From Pseudomarimonas salicorniae (lineage in GTDB: Bacteria; Pseudomonadota; Gammaproteobacteria; Xanthomonadales; Xanthomonadaceae): a DNA stretch of 64,000 bases. The notes beneath the pieces are model-generated. The model was given only the letters and a program-made list of their open reading frames with translations, did not search any database and had not been told where the DNA came from. Position numbers and translations under genes: made by a program. The DNA lies in contig NZ_JALNMH010000015.1 in the NCBI RefSeq assembly GCF_023156535.1, positions 1-64,000 of the forward strand, written 5' to 3'. The number at the start of each line of letters is the position of its first letter. Within the stretch, counting starts at the first letter, position 1. This document shows, piece by piece, positions 4,927 to 62,615 of this stretch.

Positions 4927-4959
4927 TGGGGCTTCGCCGGCGCCCAACGAAGCCCGAAT

Positions 4960-5055
4960 GTGGGAGTGCCCTTGGGCGCGACCGCGGAGATCCGCTCTGG
5001 CCGCGGTCTGTGGTGAATCCGTAGCGCTGCGGTCGCGCCCAAGGGCACTCCCACA
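4960..5055. repeat. repeat family B copy (~95 bp, palindromic ends)
   Basis: Begins gtgggagtgcccttgggcgc and ends with its inverse (gcgcccaagggcactcccac), with a centre that contains ccgctctggccgcgg. Three more copies lie at 46475-46569, 48611-48705 and 62306-62393. The outer arms can pair over more than 20 bases, so the whole unit is a large potential stem-loop. Confidence 0.8.
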
Positions 5056-46397: not shown

Positions 46398-46474
46398 GCG
46401 CCGCGGTCGGGGGAGGGGACGCTCCGGGCGCGAAGTGCGCATTCGCCCCGGTGCATCAAATGGGCTGATGTTCT

Positions 46475-46569
46475 GTGGGAGTGCCCTTGGGCGCGACCGG
46501 GGCGATCCGCTCTGGCCGCGGTCTGAGGTGAATCCGTAGCGCCGCGGTCGCGCCCAAGGGCGTTCCCAC
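46475..46569. repeat. repeat family B copy
   Basis: Starts gtgggagtgcccttgggcgc, ends with its inverse. Followed by an inverted copy of family A at about 46595-46645 (ggtgcggccagccgcaccct). Together they fill the 300-base region between the PhzF and DUF4199 genes, which has no gene. Confidence 0.8.
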
Positions 46570-46594
46570 AGTCGGGCTTCGTTGGGCGTCAGCG

Positions 46595-47863: not shown

Positions 47864-48397
47864 CTACTGCTCGCTCTCGCTCGGCCGCGGTCTGGAAGCG
47901 GAGGAGGCCGCCGGCTGGGGGGCGGCCTGCGATGAATATGGCGAGGTACCGGTGGAACGGGCGACGCTCATCTTGTCCAACTCGCCCTGCAGGCGATCAA
48001 GTCGCTGCTCGGCGAGCCGGCCGCCAAGCATATGGGCAAGCTTGCGGGCGTCGCCGCGGTCGCTGAAGGCGACCTTGAGCCTCAGCCTGCCGCCTTCGGT
48101 GCTCGGAATGTCGGCCACCGCGGTGAGGTCGGAGACACGGATCTCGATGCGCGGCGACAGCCAGAGGAAGCCCGCCCGGTACTGCGCCGCCACCAGGGTA
48201 TCGAGCGGTACCAGCGTCGTCTTCATGCCGGTACGCAGCACGCCGAGCACGGCGTCGCGGGTCTGGTACTGCAGCAGCAGACCGTCGGCATCCAGACGAA
48301 GGATGCCCTGGATCTCGCCGAATCCGCCGAATGCGTCACAGGAGAAGGGCACCGAATCCATGCCGGGAGGTTGCGGTGGGGGAGGGGGCACAAGCAT
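47864..48397 (-). CDS. hypothetical protein
   Basis: 177 residues from ATG 48397, or 165 from the ATG at 48361; no clear ribosome-binding site for either. The central part has a PH-like strand pattern (GILRLDADGLLLQYQTRD; KTTLVPLDTLVAAQYR; GFLWLSPRIEIRVSDL) followed by a helix, resembling small membrane-associated PH-like domains in stress operons. The C-terminus is Ser/Pro/Arg-rich and disordered. I do not recognise a named family. Confidence 0.5.
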   Translation of the reverse strand: MLVPPPPPQPPGMDSVPFSCDAFGGFGEIQGILRLDADGLLLQYQTRDAVLGVLRTGMKTTLVPLDTLVAAQYRAGFLWLSPRIEIRVSDLTAVADIPSTEGGRLRLKVAFSDRGDARKLAHMLGGRLAEQRLDRLQGELDKMSVARSTGTSPYSSQAAPQPAASSASRPRPSESEQ

Positions 48398-48506
48398 AGC
48401 AGCGGCGTTTCCGGGGCAAGAACCGTGAGCCTTCGACGCGTCCGCCGCGGGAGCGTGACGCGTGGAGATTTCCGGTCGACGCGCAAGAAGGGCGGGAAGA
48501 AGACAT

Positions 48507-48770
48507 TCATAGGGTGCGGCTGGCCGCACCGGGCGTACCGTCCGAACGCCCATGTCGGTGCGCCAAGACGCGCGCTATAGGCCTGCGCCGACCCCCAACG
48601 GTGCCGGACTGTGGGAGCGCCCTTGGGCGCGACCGCGGCGTATCGGATTCACCACACACCGCGGCCAGAGCGGAACTCCGCGGTCGCGCCCAAGGGCACT
48701 CCCACAGAACATCGGCCCAATTGATGCACCGGGGCGAATGCGCCCTTCGCGCCCGATTGTTCCGTTGCAC
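48507..48770. repeat. repeat cluster: family A and family B copies
   Basis: A family A copy spans about 48507-48590 in direct orientation relative to 4841-4926, and a family B copy spans 48611-48705 (gtgggagcgcccttgggcgc ... cccac). Between 48398 and 48828 there is no gene, only these repeats and their flanks. The flank gatgcaccggggcgaatgcg after family B recurs inverted near 46441-46470. Confidence 0.8.
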
Positions 48771-48828
48771 ATAGACCCCGGCCGGAGCCGGCGCATCCGG
48801 CCAACCATACGACTCCCGCCCGCGACGC

Positions 48829-49623
48829 TCAGCCGGCCGGTTCGATCCGCGTGCCGAGGATCACCTCGCGCTGGCGCAGCGCCTGAAGGAGGCGGCTACC
48901 GTTTTCGATGAATCCAGGCAGGCTCGCGGCGTCGACGCCGGCCGCCACGCCGAGCGCCTGCAGCAGCTGTCGGCCACTGGCGCCCTGCTCGTTGCTGCCC
49001 ACCGCCTGCAGCAGGTGGTAGCCCAACGGGTCAAGCGACTTGAAGCGGATCTCGCCCTCGCCATCGCGCACGACCAGCAGGAAGGTCGGCTGCGGCGGCG
49101 GCTCGGCGGGTTGGAAGTCCTCGCGGATCTGCTGCACCGGGAAGCGATAGGCCAGTGGCCAGGCCAGCGGCGAGAGCAGGGGCACGCCGCCCAGCAGGTC
49201 GGCCTCGCGATCGGCCTGCAGATCCTGCTCATCAACCTCTTCGAGCGAGAGCGCGAGCTCCACCCATTCGTAGTGGGCCAGTTCGAGCAGGAAGGGCGGA
49301 TCGCCGCGGCCTTCCTCCTGCCGGCGCTCGAGGTAGCGCAGGAACTCGCGGCCGATCTCGGTGAACAGCGGCGTGTGGCAGGCGTGCTCGCGATAGAAGT
49401 CGCGGACCAGGGCGTGCCAGCTGTCATCGCCCCGCAGGCGGCGGATCACCGGGAAGTTGCCGGCGAGCAGGCCCTCCAGGCTGTTGTAGAACAGGTCGCG
49501 GTAGATCGCCATGCGGCGATCCTCGATGCCCTCGGGCGGCGGCGCGCTGGCCGGGTCGCGGAGGTGGGCGGCGAAGGCGACCTGCTGCTCGCGCAGGCGT
49601 GGCGGTGCCTCAAGCGGCCGCAT
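48829..49623 (-). CDS. hvfC: HvfC-family RiPP maturation partner (DUF2063)
   Basis: 264 residues matching the DUF2063/HvfC family, which works with MNIO maturases as the peptide-recruiting or redox partner. Recognisable: [20 protein letters not shown] and [15 protein letters not shown] in the N-terminal domain (about 10-105), and a second helical/winged domain at about 130-264. Its start overlaps the end of the MNIO gene by 14 bp, so the two are made together. No DoxX-family gene follows; the operon ends before repeat cluster 48.5-48.8 kb. Confidence 0.85.
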
Positions 49624-50464
49624 GCCGGGCGTCTTCTTTGGCGTGGCGCTGCTGGATCCCGCGGATCGTCGCGATCTCGGATTCCAGTACCGGCAGCGCG
49701 GGGATATTGAAGTCGCGTTCGAGCAGGGTCGGCTTCAGCCCGGTGTGGGCATAGGCGGCATCGAGCATGGACCAGACCGGGTCGACCACGGCGGCGCCGT
49801 GGGTGTCGACGATCAGGTCGTCGGCCTCGCGGTAGTGGCCGGCGACGTGGATGTAGCGCACCCGCCGTGCCGGCAGCGCATGAAGGAATTCCAGTGCGTC
49901 GTAGCGGTGGTTCACGCTGTTGACGTAGATGTTGTTGACGTCGAGCAGCAGCTCGCAGTCGGCGCCGTCGAGCACGGCGTTGATGAAGTCGATCTCGCGC
50001 ATCGACTGGTGCGGTGCGGCGTAATAGCTGACGTTCTCGAGTGCGATGCGCCGGCCGAGGATGTCCTGGACACGCCGGACCCGTCCGACCACGTAGTCCA
50101 CCGCCTCGGCGGTGAACGGGATCGGCATCAGGTCGTAGAGATGGCCGCCGTCGGTGCAGTAGCTGAGGTGTTCGCTGTAGATTGGCACCCGATACTGGTC
50201 GAGGAAGCGGCGAAGGCGCTGCAGGAAGGGCTCGTCGAGCGCATCCGGCCCGCCGATCGACAGCGATAGTCCGTGGCAGACCAGCGGGTAGCGCTCGCAG
50301 GCCGCGGCGAAGCGCCGGCCGAGACTGCCGCCAACGCCGATCCAGTTTTCCGGGGCGACCTCGACGAAGTCGAAGCCGGGGCTGTCGCAGTCGAGCAGCG
50401 GGCCCAGCAGGGCCCGCCGCAGACCGAGACCCGCACTCGCCGGAGCAAGCTTCTGGGGGCTCAT
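49610..50464 (-). CDS. hvfB: MNIO-family RiPP maturase (DUF692, HvfB type)
   Basis: Multinuclear non-haem iron oxygenase of 284 residues. By family knowledge HvfB with HvfC converts Cys of EGKCG motifs in HvfA to oxazolone-thioamide units that bind Cu(I). The TIM-barrel metal ligands are visible: His64 (CHGLSL), Glu98-His99 (SEHLSY), Glu143-Asn144 (LENVSYY), Asp175/Asn177-178 ([10 protein letters not shown]), His206 and His210 (YIHVAGHY), Asp220/His222 (DTHGAAVVD) and Glu249 (LLERDF). It starts 18 bp after the HvfA gene. This Asn-rich pattern fits an intact tri-iron-type enzyme. Cytoplasmic. Confidence 0.93.
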
Positions 50465-50482
50465 GGGCTCAGCATCCGGCGA

Positions 50483-50851
50483 TCAGCCGCCGCACTTGCC
50501 CTCGCCACACTTGCCTTCACCTTCCTTCTTGCCCTCGCCGCACTTGCCTTCACCGCACTTGCCCTCGGCCTTCTTGCCTTCGCCACACTTGCCTTCACCG
50601 CACTTGCCCTCGGCCTTCTTGCCTTCGCCGCACTTGCCTTCACCGCACTTGCCCTCGGCCTTCTTGCCCTCGCCGCACTTGCCCTCACCACACTTGCCTT
50701 CCTTGGCCTTCTCATGGTCGCCCACCAGCTGATAGCCGGCGTCGAGGTCGGTCACGTTGAAGCTGGAAGCGGTGGCATTGGCGGACAGGGCCAGCGAACC
50801 GACGAAGGCGGCACCAACGGCCAGCGACAGGGTCTGCATACGCTTGTTCAT
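50483..50851 (-). CDS. hvfA: HvfA-type RiPP precursor with ten EGKCG motifs
   Basis: 122 residues from ATG 50851 with AAGGGAGA upstream; a longer frame reading into the sigma-factor spacer is discarded. A signal peptide (cut near ATA-S, residue 28) precedes a short core, then residues 51-121 hold ten EGKCG motifs in five pairs, separated by EGKKA (three times) and EGKKEG (once). Cysteines lie at 54, 59, 69, 74, 84, 89, 99, 104, 115 and 120, all in that motif, and there is none elsewhere. EGKCG Cys are the modification sites of HvfA in Haemophilus. Likely an exported copper-binding peptide. Confidence 0.94.
   Translation of the reverse strand: MNKRMQTLSLAVGAAFVGSLALSANATASSFNVTDLDAGYQLVGDHEKAKEGKCGEGKCGEGKKAEGKCGEGKCGEGKKAEGKCGEGKCGEGKKAEGKCGEGKCGEGKKEGEGKCGEGKCGG
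50489..50701 (-). repeat. in-frame 45-bp tandem repeats encoding EGKCG pairs
   Basis: The DNA encoding residues 51-121 of the precursor is a tandem array with a 45-base period (EGKCG-EGKCG-EGKKA). Third positions vary only slightly between units (ggc/ggt, tgc, aag), so slipped-strand changes of the copy number are likely. Confidence 0.85.
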
Positions 50852-50957
50852 GTGTATCTCCCTTGATGGATCGAAGAGCGGGTCTACCCCGCGGATTGCC
50901 CGCTCACGCGGGGATGGCGTCAAGCCGGACTCAGCATGCGTACGGAGGATGTCCGGC

Positions 50958-51476
50958 TCATGGATTCAGGTACTCGCGCAGGAGCACGCGCGCTCGATGC
51001 AGCCGCGCCTTGGCAGCCTCGCGACTGAGGTCGAGGACCTCGCAGATCTCGTCGATGGTCAGCTCCTGCGCATCACGCAGCAGGACGACGTCACGATAGT
51101 GCTGGGGCAGGGATTCGATGGCCCGGACCAGGTCGTGGCGCAGCGCGTCGACCGGCTGCACCACCGGCTGTTCCAGCTCGCGCTCGGGTGCGTAGTCGAA
51201 GACGTGGGTTCGCCAGAATCGCTTCATGCGGTCGCACTCCCGCTTGACGATCCGGAACAGCCAGCCATTTAGCGCGACGGCCGCACGCAGGCGGCGAATG
51301 CTTCGGCTGGCGATCAGCAGGGTTTCCTGCACGGCGTCTTCGACGTCGTGGACGACGCAGTGCCGCTCGGCATAGCGGATGACCTGCCGGCGTCTTGCGC
51401 CAAGCAGACGGGCCAGGGCCTGGGCGTCACCCAGGCGTGCCGCTTCGATGTCATCGCTGGTGAGCTCGGCCTGCAC
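50958..51476 (-). CDS. ECF-type sigma factor
   Basis: RNA polymerase sigma factor of 172 residues from a GTG at 51476 with a strong GGAGGG six bases upstream. An ATG 14 codons earlier lacks such a site. Region 2 (about 25-80; DVEDAVQETLLIASRSIRRL, then NGWLFRIVKRECDR) and region 4 (about 115-170; LPQHYRDVVLLRDAQELTID, EICEVLDLSREAAKARLHRA) are complete. The region 1/3 linker is short. It is 106 bp upstream of the HvfA gene on the same strand and probably controls the operon. No anti-sigma gene is adjacent. Confidence 0.9.
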   Translation of the reverse strand: MQAELTSDDIEAARLGDAQALARLLGARRRQVIRYAERHCVVHDVEDAVQETLLIASRSIRRLRAAVALNGWLFRIVKRECDRMKRFWRTHVFDYAPERELEQPVVQPVDALRHDLVRAIESLPQHYRDVVLLRDAQELTIDEICEVLDLSREAAKARLHRARVLLREYLNP

Positions 51477-51644
51477 CGGGCGCCCTCCGCAGATCGTGGG
51501 CCAAGGATAGCGCGTCAAAGCGTGGCGGCCATCACAATCGAGGCCGGACGCGGCGACGCGCGCGTTTCACAGGACAAGTGGCGGGCAGGGCGGAAATCGA
51601 TGCGCGCAGCGGACGGGCGCATTCATGGTTCGTTCATGAAAAAA

Positions 51645-51667
51645 CGGCGCCCGGAGTCCGGGCGCCG
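51645..51667 (-). terminator. rho-independent terminator of the porin gene
   Basis: Arms cggcgcccgga/tccgggcgccg with a 1-base centre, followed on the minus strand by six T residues (51639-51644). It lies 54 bases after the porin stop and separates the porin from the sigma-factor operon. Confidence 0.92.
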
Positions 51668-51721
51668 CTGAGTCTTCTGCGATGAACGAGAGCGTCTTCG
51701 AAGGCGATCCCCGGCGCTGGC

Positions 51722-52798
51722 TCAGAAGCCCACGGCCACGCGGAAGGTCCACAGCTCGGCGTCGGCGCCATCGCTGTCGCGCTCATTCATATGCCGGTCC
51801 AGCATGAAGCGCAGGTGCTTGCCGTATTGCACGTTGGTGCCGACCGAGAAACCGTCGTGACCATTCTCGCCACCGGCCACCCGCGGCAGACGCGCATCGC
51901 TGTAACGCAGTGCCAGTTCGATCTGGCCCAGCCCCTCGGTGGCCTTCGGGCCGACGAACAGGCCGGAGGACGAATCATAGGCGCGCGGCGCGCCGTGTAC
52001 GGTCCACGAGGCCTGCAGCGTGGTGCCCTGCACACTGCGCGAGCTCTCACCATCGAAGTCACCGTGCGACCAGTCGCCGAAGACCGCGACGTTCCCACGC
52101 TGCCAACCGAACTCGAGGCCAGTGCGGCGGAAATCGTCGACGTTGCGGAAGCTGCCCCCGTCCACCCAGTTCGGCCCAAAGCTGCCGATCTCCGGGCGCA
52201 GGCGGAAACGCAGCGAGTTGTTCTGCGGTGACTCCTGAGTGCCGGCGAGGCCGAAATGGAAGATTCCGCTCTCCGCGTTGCCACGCCATCCCCAGGCCCG
52301 GGCTGCTACGCCGAGGTCGGGGCCGGAGTTCTGCAGGTTCTGGCCGAACACCGCCGCCTGCATGCCCCAGGAGTCACCGCCGCGGGCGTACTGCACACCG
52401 AGACGGCGACTGGGAGCCAGCAGTGAGCCCGCGCTGCTTTCGGTGAACAGAAGCTGCGAGCTGGATGCCAGCACCTCAGGCCCGAACGGGATCTTGAACT
52501 GACCAACGGTCAGCTTTGCACCGCCTGCGGGGAAGCGCAGGTAGACGTCGGTCCAGGCGTCCGAATTGAAGTCGTACTCGACCTTCATCTCGTACTTCTC
52601 CGCCAGGGTCGTGGAGAAGCCAAACTCGCGGCGACGCCAGCTGTCTACGTCGTCGATCGGGGCCGGGGCGGAGTCGACGAAGACCGTGTCGAACTGGAAG
52701 TTGCCCTTGATCTTGACCGGGCCGAGTTCGAGAGCTTCGGCGCCCGACGGGAGTCCGAGGGCCAGCAGGGTGGCCGCGCTGAGGGCACGAAGTTTCAT
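51722..52798 (-). CDS. porin of the OprO/OprP (phosphate-selective) type
   Basis: 358 residues with a signal peptide (MKLRALSAATLLALGLPSGA). The mature part has the alternating-strand pattern of a 16-strand barrel with family segments: GNFQFDTVFVDSAP, EYDFNSDAWTDVYLRF, FKIPFGPEVL and a terminal FRVAVGF ending in Phe. Whether it prefers phosphate, polyphosphate or other anions cannot be told, since the Arg ladder is not traceable here. The upstream region to 52910 has no gene. Single transcript with its own terminator. Confidence 0.85.
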   Translation of the reverse strand: MKLRALSAATLLALGLPSGAEALELGPVKIKGNFQFDTVFVDSAPAPIDDVDSWRRREFGFSTTLAEKYEMKVEYDFNSDAWTDVYLRFPAGGAKLTVGQFKIPFGPEVLASSSQLLFTESSAGSLLAPSRRLGVQYARGGDSWGMQAAVFGQNLQNSGPDLGVAARAWGWRGNAESGIFHFGLAGTQESPQNNSLRFRLRPEIGSFGPNWVDGGSFRNVDDFRRTGLEFGWQRGNVAVFGDWSHGDFDGESSRSVQGTTLQASWTVHGAPRAYDSSSGLFVGPKATEGLGQIELALRYSDARLPRVAGGENGHDGFSVGTNVQYGKHLRFMLDRHMNERDSDGADAELWTFRVAVGF

Positions 52799-52910
52799 GC
52801 AGAAGTCCGTTGGATGAAAGTCAGGTGTCCAAGATATTGCGCAATTGTTACAGCGAAATTACGACGTGCCCTCGGGAGAAACCCGCGTGTCGGATAGTCC
52901 GCGGTTTCAG

Positions 52911-53573
52911 TCACTTGGGCTCGTCGCGCCCTGGCTCAGCTGTCACCGTCTTGCCACGGAAGCGGCACAGGTCGCGCACCACGCACTGCGGGCAGTCCGG
53001 CTTGCGTGCCTTGCAGACGTAGCGTCCGTGCAGGATCAGCCAGTGATGGGCGTCGAGCAGGAACTCGGCGGGCACGCGCTTGAGCAGGGCCTTCTCCACG
53101 GCCAGCGGCGTCTTGCCGGGGGCAAGGCCGGTGCGGTTGCCGACCCGGAAGATATGGGTGTCCACCGCCATGGTCGGCTGGCCGAATGCGGTGTTCAGCA
53201 CCACATTGGCGGTCTTGCGGCCGACCCCGGGCAGGGCTTCCAGGGACTCGCGGTCCCGAGGCACCTCGCCGCCGTGTTTCTCGAGCAGGATCCGGCAGGT
53301 GGCGATGACGTTCTTCGCCTTGCTGTTGAACAGGCCGATGCTGCTGATCAGTTCGCGCAGGCGATCCTCGCCGAGGTCGAGGATCGCCTGCGGCGTGTTG
53401 GCCAGCGGAAACAGCCGGCGGGTGACCTTGTTCACCGAAACATCGGTGGCCTGGGCGGACAGCGCGACCGCGACCAGCAGCTCGAAGGGGGTGGAGAACT
53501 CAAGTTCGGTGGTCGGATGCGGATTCAGCTCGCGCAGCCGCGAGAAGAATTCATGGCGCTGCTGGGCGTTCAA
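52911..53573 (-). CDS. nth: endonuclease III
   Basis: DNA glycosylase/AP lyase for oxidised pyrimidines. I propose a TTG start at 53573 (LNAQQRHEFF), which has GAGGA about 9 bases upstream and gives 220 residues, near E. coli Nth (211). A longer ATG start at 53627 would add an unusual leader inside rnfE. Core motifs: LSAQATDVSVNKVT, the HhH LPGVGRKTANVV with catalytic Lys, VDTHIFRV with Asp, and the [4Fe-4S] set C-x6-C-x2-C-x5-C (CKARKPDC ... RDLC). It follows rnfE with a 23-bp overlap, as in E. coli (rsxE-nth). Confidence 0.93.
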   Translation of the reverse strand: MNAQQRHEFFSRLRELNPHPTTELEFSTPFELLVAVALSAQATDVSVNKVTRRLFPLANTPQAILDLGEDRLRELISSIGLFNSKAKNVIATCRILLEKHGGEVPRDRESLEALPGVGRKTANVVLNTAFGQPTMAVDTHIFRVGNRTGLAPGKTPLAVEKALLKRVPAEFLLDAHHWLILHGRYVCKARKPDCPQCVVRDLCRFRGKTVTAEPGRDEPK

Positions 53574-62111: not shown

Positions 62112-62615
62112 GCGGCAGCGGCTCGCGCCCCCCCGAAAGGCAGGGTTGGGCGCGAAGTTCGCATTCGCCCCGGTCCCGTTGTAGGAGCCAGCTTGCTGGC
62201 GATAGGCGCCCCGGACGGAACGATCGCCAGCAAGCTGGCTCCTACACGCAACGTCGCTGCCAGGTCCGGTTTGCGCTGCAAAGCAGGCCTTGCCGCAGTC
62301 AAATTGTGGGAGTGCCCTCGGGCGCGACCGCAGCGCTACGGATTCACCACAGACCGCGGCCAGAGCGGAACTCCGCGGTCGCGCCCAAGGGCTTTGGGCG
62401 CGAAGTTCGCATTCGCCCCGGTCCCGCTGTAGGAGCCAGCTTGCTGGCGATAGGCGCCACGGATGGGACGATCGCCAGCAAGCTGGCTCCTACATTCGGG
62501 TGTTGTGGAAGGTCTTCTTCGCGCCCAAGGTTCGCGTTGGCGCCGCGACAATGTTTGTCAGATACCCCATCGAAGCGCGTCGCGACGGCAGGGTCGGTTG
62601 GCGCGCGCCCTGCGG
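62112..62615. repeat. repeat cluster: two family C copies and one family B copy
   Basis: Family C copies lie at 62181-62246 and 62429-62494; a family B copy lies between them (62306-62393), cut short at its right arm. The sequence around each C copy (cgaagttcgcattcgccccg upstream) is itself repeated, showing duplication of a longer unit. No gene is present in this 500-base region. Confidence 0.88.

Follow-up and report, generated by a model that had tools for sequence, protein, structure and literature searches.

Within the first 64,000 nucleotides of Pseudomarimonas salicorniae contig NZ_JALNMH010000015.1 (assembly GCF_023156535.1; the stretch analysed here, called the window), a gene for an extracytoplasmic function (ECF) sigma factor is followed on the minus strand by hvfA, hvfB and hvfC. 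The locus is an operon of the captophorin or Buf_EGKCG class (oxazolin, fontiphorin), a class already known. Probably it specifies a Sec-exported copper peptide with ten sites modified by HvfB and HvfC, the sigma gene and hvfABC forming one unit without an adjacent anti-sigma gene. The position and order claimed for the four genes in an earlier note on this DNA were borne out, as follows:

51476-50958, minus strand: ECF sigma factor gene, 172 amino acids from a GTG start (a TTG start at 51518 is possible)
50851-50483, minus strand: hvfA, captophorin/Buf_EGKCG precursor, 122 amino acids from an ATG start, with GGGAG ahead of it
50768..50851, minus strand: putative Sec-type signal peptide of HvfA, recognised by eye (basic start, hydrophobic core, Ala-x-Ala near residue 28)
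50488..50698, minus strand: 45-bp tandem array within hvfA, encoding EGKCGEGKCGEGKKA-type units, from tandem-repeat analysis
50464-49610, minus strand: hvfB, DUF692 (PF05114) maturase of the multinuclear non-heme iron-dependent oxidative enzymes (MNIO), 284 amino acids
49623-48829, minus strand: hvfC, partner protein PME1 (DUF2063 + NGO1945_C), 264 amino acids

The hvfB and hvfC genes overlap by 14 bp, and 106 bp separate the end of the sigma gene from the start of hvfA. The same note had described an HvfABC-type operon for a ribosomally synthesized and post-translationally modified peptide, in which an exported 122-residue precursor is followed by an MNIO and a DUF2063 partner and is headed by an ECF sigma gene. 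This description was confirmed by the EGKCG motifs of the precursor, which starts with a putative export signal that looks typical by eye, and by Pfam: HvfB matches PF05114 with 343 bits (E 1.2e-102), HvfC matches PF09836 (DUF2063) with 99 and PF22106 (NGO1945_C) with 83 bits, and the sigma factor, in its longer 186-amino acid form, matches Sigma70_r2 with 33 and Sigma70_r4_2 with 53 bits. HvfA, searched without its initial Met, had no Pfam match.

The HvfA array and its maturation proteins

HvfA contains exactly ten EGKCG motifs (residues 51, 56, 66, 71, 81, 86, 96, 101, 112 and 117), and all ten cysteines of the peptide lie within them, just as had been noticed from the sequence. The motifs are arranged as EGKCGEGKCG pairs with four spacers, EGKKA three times and EGKKEG once; at the DNA level this is a 45-bp tandem repeat of 4.6 copies with 90% matches. 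For comparison 60 relatives were surveyed, 49 of which had an HvfB match, and 40 loci (39 genomes) were taken from the 46 strong HvfB matches (>320 bits), the window's own being excluded. A motif pattern search revealed arrays in 36 of the 40 loci, with 2-12 motifs each, exactly ten in three and more than ten in two. Three congeners keep the precursor, with 6, 10 and 12 motifs. The repeats are conserved in relatives, a point that the earlier note had singled out for checking. Its description of the array as unusually long did not hold: precursors of this family range from 31 to 506 residues with up to 58 cysteines (PMC12452194, from the text available), and ten motifs is high within the order and not unusual within the family.

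Spacers are near-uniform within a species, being EGKKA in three of four cases in the window and EAKKA in all five in the congener locus L034, which suggests that the arrays may change by gain and loss of whole units. Of the four loci in which the pattern found no array, three (L043, L045 and L054) have a close HvfB relative next to a precursor whose repeats are naturally varied at the Lys position, being for the most part EGSCG, EGECG or EGNCG in type; at the fourth, L057, no clear HvfA precursor was recovered. EF-hand-like stretches (DxDxDG) between blocks of Cys repeats were seen by eye in the precursors of L037, L048-L053, L056, L058, L061 and L066-L070. They resemble the EF-hand type of PMC12452194, as far as its available text describes it, but in most of them motifs occur on both sides.

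An alignment of the window HvfB with 14 relatives revealed fourteen invariant residues (R16, R17, H64, H99, E143, D175, N178, H206, H210, D220, H222, E249, D251 and F252), which are candidate metal ligands and FonB-type specificity residues as mapped by motif. R16, R17, D251 and F252 would correspond to the Lys-Cys specificity residues R15, R16, D249 and F250 of FonB, by motif mapping and not by alignment of the FonB sequence itself. Candidate counterparts, likewise placed by motif where applicable, exist for HvfB residues N175, D242 and H244 of PMC13419390 (available text). The closest solved structure to HvfB is 3bww (2e-70), a di-iron HvfB relative (PMC13419390), and that to HvfC is 3dee (8e-8).

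The sigma factor and its upstream region

A profile built from nine hvf-linked sigma factors was searched in the 60 relatives at 1e-20. Nine matches were strong (>230 bits) and eight of these are at hvf; the ninth is in a fragmented genome, G010, where no hvf gene occurs in 8.0 of the 9.4 kb fetched around the sigma gene. All the other sigma matches listed fall below 88 bits. In a second set, the best 80 of 330 confirmed relatives from named genomes, seven of the eight best sigma factors by profile are at hvf (in Pseudoxanthomonas, Arenimonas, Lysobacter and an uncultured member of the Xanthomonadaceae), and the eighth, L082, has no hvf within 6 kb. A tree of 48 sigma factors places 16 hvf-linked members and L082 in one 17-row clade with support of 100/97. 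Among the members sampled, the clade is thus found almost only directly before hvfA, and genome context ties the sigma factor to the operon, as the earlier note had it. Judging from its relatives the window belongs to a Lysobacteraceae-type family; within the same-family loci the sigma gene is present at 9 of 24. One more hvf-linked sigma gene, at L057 in draft genome G026, is frame-broken through decay or assembly error. Another clade within this ECF group (L101, L106, L107 and L115) has a more distant MNIO gene within 6 kb, which in L101 is located at the locus edge; DoxX is also present in L107 and a sulfatase in L115.

No anti-sigma gene was found beside this sigma gene. Among the open reading frames of the window there is no credible one of at least 60 amino acids next to it on its strand, and the window genome yielded no match to NrsF (PF06532; the Caulobacter control was positive), to zf-HC2, a model that may miss HrsE-like peptides, or to PF11127 (YgaP-like). 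The last was searched because eight of the ten proteins picked beside sister sigma factors in other taxa belong to it. These sister ECF sigma genes (L085, L088, L090, L100 and L102-L105), whose products have the same two cysteines as that of the window (see below), directly follow the gene for the YgaP-like membrane protein, which carries a CPxCA-type motif and is a possible thiol-sensing partner.

Several known systems, as described in the cited papers, can be compared on this point. The three core genes are the same in Haemophilus influenzae hvfABC(D) (PMC13419390), and ECF control is known there: RpoE2 is required for the cluster and is itself restrained by the anti-sigma factor HrsE (PMC7907618). 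However, the Haemophilus sigma gene is located elsewhere with a gene for a 67-amino acid anti-sigma factor, whereas that of the window heads the operon with none found beside it; no gene for a small zinc-binding anti-sigma of the RpoE2/HrsE type (ECF group 13) was found with the window sigma gene, RpoE2 being compared by description. Oxazolin has six sites against ten here, and hvfD is in the Haemophilus cluster but on another contig in our genome. Neisseria NGO1944-1948 (gonophorin; PMC2954202, PMC12668002) resembles the window, by description and not by sequence, in its neighbouring genes for an ECF sigma factor, DUF2063 and DUF692 proteins, a periplasmic peptide and DoxX, and it is perhaps cotranscribed (PMC2954202); its SigE has an anti-sigma factor (PMC7907618), unlike the surroundings of the window sigma gene. 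Bufferin-1 operons (PMC12452194; SigF, PMC3511200) likewise include a sigma gene in a copper-related MNIO operon, but with a DUF2282 precursor and NrsF. According to the available text of PMC12452194, Buf1 but not Buf2 operons carry sigma and NrsF genes, and EGKCG operons consist of core genes with few extras. An ECF sigma factor without an anti-sigma is offered, by analogy only, by Streptomyces coelicolor SigE, which is under transcriptional control by the two-component system CseBC (PMC8999054).

Induction of the Haemophilus cluster by hypochlorous acid through RpoE2 (PMC7907618, available text) would fit a peptide acting mainly against oxidants, or against metals other than copper, and so would the thiol-type proteins beside the sister sigma factors (YgaP-like in 8 of 10 scanned, DsbD-like in 1 of 10). 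We consider this unlikely, since the characterised EGKCG products bind copper (PMC12668002, available text).

It is about equally improbable that the sigma factor is itself the sensor, with C40 and C81 (together with H39) binding Cu(I) or becoming oxidised so that no anti-sigma is needed. The 172-amino acid protein has three cysteines, C40 and C81 in its sigma-2 part and one in its sigma-4 part (EICEV). H39, C40 and C81 are identical in all 16 hvf-linked sigma factors compared, and this conservation, the lack of NrsF, zf-HC2 and YgaP-like matches in the window genome and the precedents of CorE (PMC8999054) and OrbS, both from partial texts, are what such a mechanism has in its favour. CorE, however, has a C-terminal Cys-rich domain and a linker CXC, and the window sigma factor has neither a C-terminal extension nor a CXC. 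Moreover, both cysteines are present in 32 of 73 other sigma factors, so that the pair is a trait of the wider ECF group, most sampled members of which are not hvf-linked; as a mark of hvf linkage it was rejected. C81 without C40 is common in the other ECF sigma factors (27 of 73, eight of them gapped at position 40), and C40 without C81 occurs in one. The predicted structural model is poor, with a mean predicted local distance difference test (pLDDT) score of 66 at which the Cys-Cys distance is not derivable.

Upstream of the sigma gene lie direct repeats of CTRAAC with a period of 11 (CTRAAC-N5-CTGAAC). Together with the other features on this side of the gene these are:

51621..51637, minus strand: candidate operator, direct repeat aTGAAC-N5-aTGAAT with period 11, 161 bp upstream of the sigma start, score 9/12
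51643..51669, minus strand: terminator-like hairpin between the porin and sigma genes, from a hairpin scan of 48300-53000; the number found is not significant
51722..52798, minus strand: porin of the phosphate-selective O/P family (PF07396, Pfam match), the upstream neighbour of the sigma gene

In 13 non-redundant sigma upstream regions the CTGAAC consensus with period 11 reaches a mean of 9.77 of 12, whereas no other period from 6 to 24 exceeds 8.69 and none of 500 shuffles exceeds 8.46. A score of at least 9 is found between -165 and -110 in 12 of the 13 (1000 shuffles gave a mean of 0.40 and a maximum of 4). With automatic starts the mean repeat score is 9.56, and 9 of 16 sigma regions reach 10. 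This score is reached elsewhere upstream of sigma-less hvfA (3/28), pstB (1/25) and hvfB (1/48), and never upstream of hvfA behind a sigma gene (0/16), porin (0/12), pstS (0/32), nth (0/22) or phoU (0/22). The exact repeat was counted four times across nine whole genomes, and three of these copies are at the sigma gene. Of 16 sigma upstream regions 7 carry a second element, CG(A/C)AYC-N-YTCTT, which is present in 2 of 205 other regions. Regulators of the OmpR/PhoB type bind 11-bp direct repeats, and the geometry here is like that of their sites. An unguided search for dyads in the sigma upstream region returned none above shuffles. Between 48300 and 53000 a sigma-70 promoter scan found none, and the single terminator-like hairpin compares with 2.0 in shuffles. 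As to a separate sigma-dependent promoter before hvfA in the sigma-bearing loci, neither a repeat scoring at least 10 nor the second element is present there (0/16 each), and this candidate was rejected.

Several points weigh against a sigma-headed, repeat-controlled operon. The model is read from sequence and genome context alone. The repeat was noticed by eye before testing, which makes the positive test post hoc; the same holds for the second element, the consensus and the position window, all chosen once the sequences had been viewed, and the relatives are not independent. The reversed pattern used as a control is equally frequent in the nine genomes (four times), so that the number of repeats is not raised and only their placement is telling. 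The window's own repeat is weak (P 0.02 at this place and 0.10 anywhere in 300 bp, from shuffles), no exact copy exists anywhere in the window genome, and the second element was not found in the sigma upstream region. Congener L032 is without the upstream repeat. In congener G001 (L034) hvfABC, with its twelve motifs, directly follows the porin gene with no sigma match at 1e-20, and the sigma factor is therefore dispensable for the operon. Lastly, an unlinked anti-sigma of another family could be encoded elsewhere in the genome.

Neighbouring genes and the phosphate question

The order in the window is rnf-nth-porin-sigma-hvfABC. At 14 of the 16 loci from other families nth is no more than 4 kb upstream, and at five of them the porin is no more than 2.5 kb away. 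The 24 same-family loci have phoU up to 2.8 kb upstream in 16 cases, the porin in three and nth in four; several same-family genomes have porin-pstS-pstC-pstA-pstB-phoU-(sigma)-hvfABC. Altogether nth, porin or phoU is near hvf at 36 of the 40 related loci, and of the remaining ones L039 is truncated by the end of its contig. The place of hvf near nth and the phosphate genes is old and stable. Among the papers listed by a literature search on phoU and MNIO terms (20 of 29 matches) none has phoU, and the main texts of two MNIO papers do not mention phosphate genes; this long-standing place near phosphate-uptake genes seems not to have been described before.

Such neighbours raise the possibility that the operon is in the PhoB regulon and is switched on at low phosphate, perhaps since starved cells lose copper-buffering phosphate. 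Besides phoU in 16 of 24 same-family loci, 8 of the 40 related loci have the phosphate porin as a neighbour of hvf, one or the other occurs in 24 of 40, and a CTGTCAC variant shows a small period-11 excess at the sigma gene (9.00 vs 8.49, best other period 8.62). The Pho-box word of E. coli is CTGTCAT. With period 11, as against the other periods, it stands out at the porin (10.83 vs 8.88) and at pstS (9.88 vs 8.45), but it does not do so at the sigma gene (8.25 vs 7.96, best other period 8.19) or at sigma-less hvfA (8.18 vs 8.12), hvfA behind a sigma gene being outside this test; in the window, moreover, the terminator-like hairpin intervenes between porin and sigma genes. Direct PhoB control is not supported, and membership of the Pho regulon, an idea that came from phoU being nearby and from the 11-bp repeats, was rejected as a direct effect once the Pho box proved prominent at porin and pstS and not at the sigma gene or sigma-less hvfA. 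Read-through from phoU may occur in other genomes; taken as a whole, we regard control by phosphate as a long shot, somewhat less probable than either of the alternatives discussed above.

The hvfD (DoxX) orthologue of the window genome is on another contig (L072, G000:C29:78830-79087) and is 60% identical to a relative's hvfD placed right after hvfC, which rules out loss of this gene; in congeners L032 and L033 a gene like hvfD lies inside the hvf region. The window also contains four copies, 91-93% alike, of a double palindrome of ca. 90-105 bp with GGTCGCGCCCAAGGGC arms, which we take to be REPIN-like, at 48610-48706, 46470-46573, 4959-5055 and 62305-62392. The first of these is just downstream of hvfC.

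The expected product, the proposed model and its implications

The products of the fon, hvf and ngo operons have been made, and the cysteine of each repeat was assigned as a 5-thiooxazole in place of the earlier oxazolone-thioamide (Gadgil et al., PMC12668002, available text); 5-thiooxazole, at six per oxazolin, is now also the term used by the group that works on HvfB (PMC13419390, available text). The oxazolone-thioamides that the earlier note expected here are consequently outdated, and since both product types lose 4 H per site the mass test proposed in it cannot separate them. It is highly improbable that the product carries methanobactin-like oxazolone-thioamide groups, as first assigned to Haemophilus oxazolin (cited in PMC12452194), because the heteronuclear multiple bond correlation (HMBC) data after alkylation are incongruent with it for the hvf product, a conclusion extended to the Neisseria product (PMC12668002), because the HvfB group itself has changed its assignment, and because the window HvfB has the FonB-like R-R and D-F residues.

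The operon fonABC of Fontimonas thermophila (PMC12668002) is like the window in having an EGKCG-type precursor, an MNIO, PME1 and expected 5-thiooxazoles, with seven sites as against ten here; no ECF sigma gene at its head is mentioned in the available text. In vitro FonBC modified a two-repeat but not a single-repeat substrate (PMC12668002), and the window array is likewise composed of motif pairs. Fontiphorin with its seven sites binds up to four Cu (PMC12668002), so that a count of ten sites should not be taken to mean ten copper ions; the "up to ten chelating sites" of the earlier note stand as ten substrate cysteines and are overstated if copper ions are meant. By analogy with these characterised homologues the product should be a ten-site captophorin with 5-thiooxazoles that binds copper.

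In the model that we favour, HvfC would bind HvfA before export through its RiPP-recognition domain, and HvfB, as a di-iron MNIO, would oxidise the cysteine of each EGKCG to a 5-thiooxazole, each site losing 4 H and the whole peptide up to 40 H. After export through Sec the modified peptide would sequester periplasmic copper, with more than one thiooxazole per Cu, so that a peptide would hold fewer than ten Cu. It is probable that the sigma gene is transcribed as one unit with hvfABC. A regulator acting at the upstream 11-bp-spaced direct repeat may raise transcription of the sigma gene, and the sigma factor might then drive its own promoter plus the operon, with no adjacent anti-sigma to hold it.

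The dedicated ECF clade, the lack of a visible anti-sigma and the conserved upstream repeat, as they appear from genome context, are a combination for which we found no description in the literature searched. We also entertain, as distinctly speculative, an undescribed ECF clade, known to date from Lysobacteraceae-type genomes, that serves captophorin operons, dispenses with an anti-sigma, directly senses copper or the oxidation of thiols through C40/C81 and is induced by a response regulator at the 11-bp repeat. If true, this would be a two-input switch for a copper-buffering peptide that has been kept for a very long time near phosphate-uptake genes.

How captophorin operons are switched outside Haemophilus, Neisseria and Caulobacter is little studied in the literature surveyed, and a sigma clade at the operon, with a conserved repeat and no visible anti-sigma, is a small system that could be tested in E. 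coli. With 6, 10, 10 and 12 sites, the congeners offer natural variation for a study of whether copper capacity is set by the number of sites. The stable place of the operon near nth, the porin and pst-phoU raises the question of whether the handling of phosphate and that of copper are linked.

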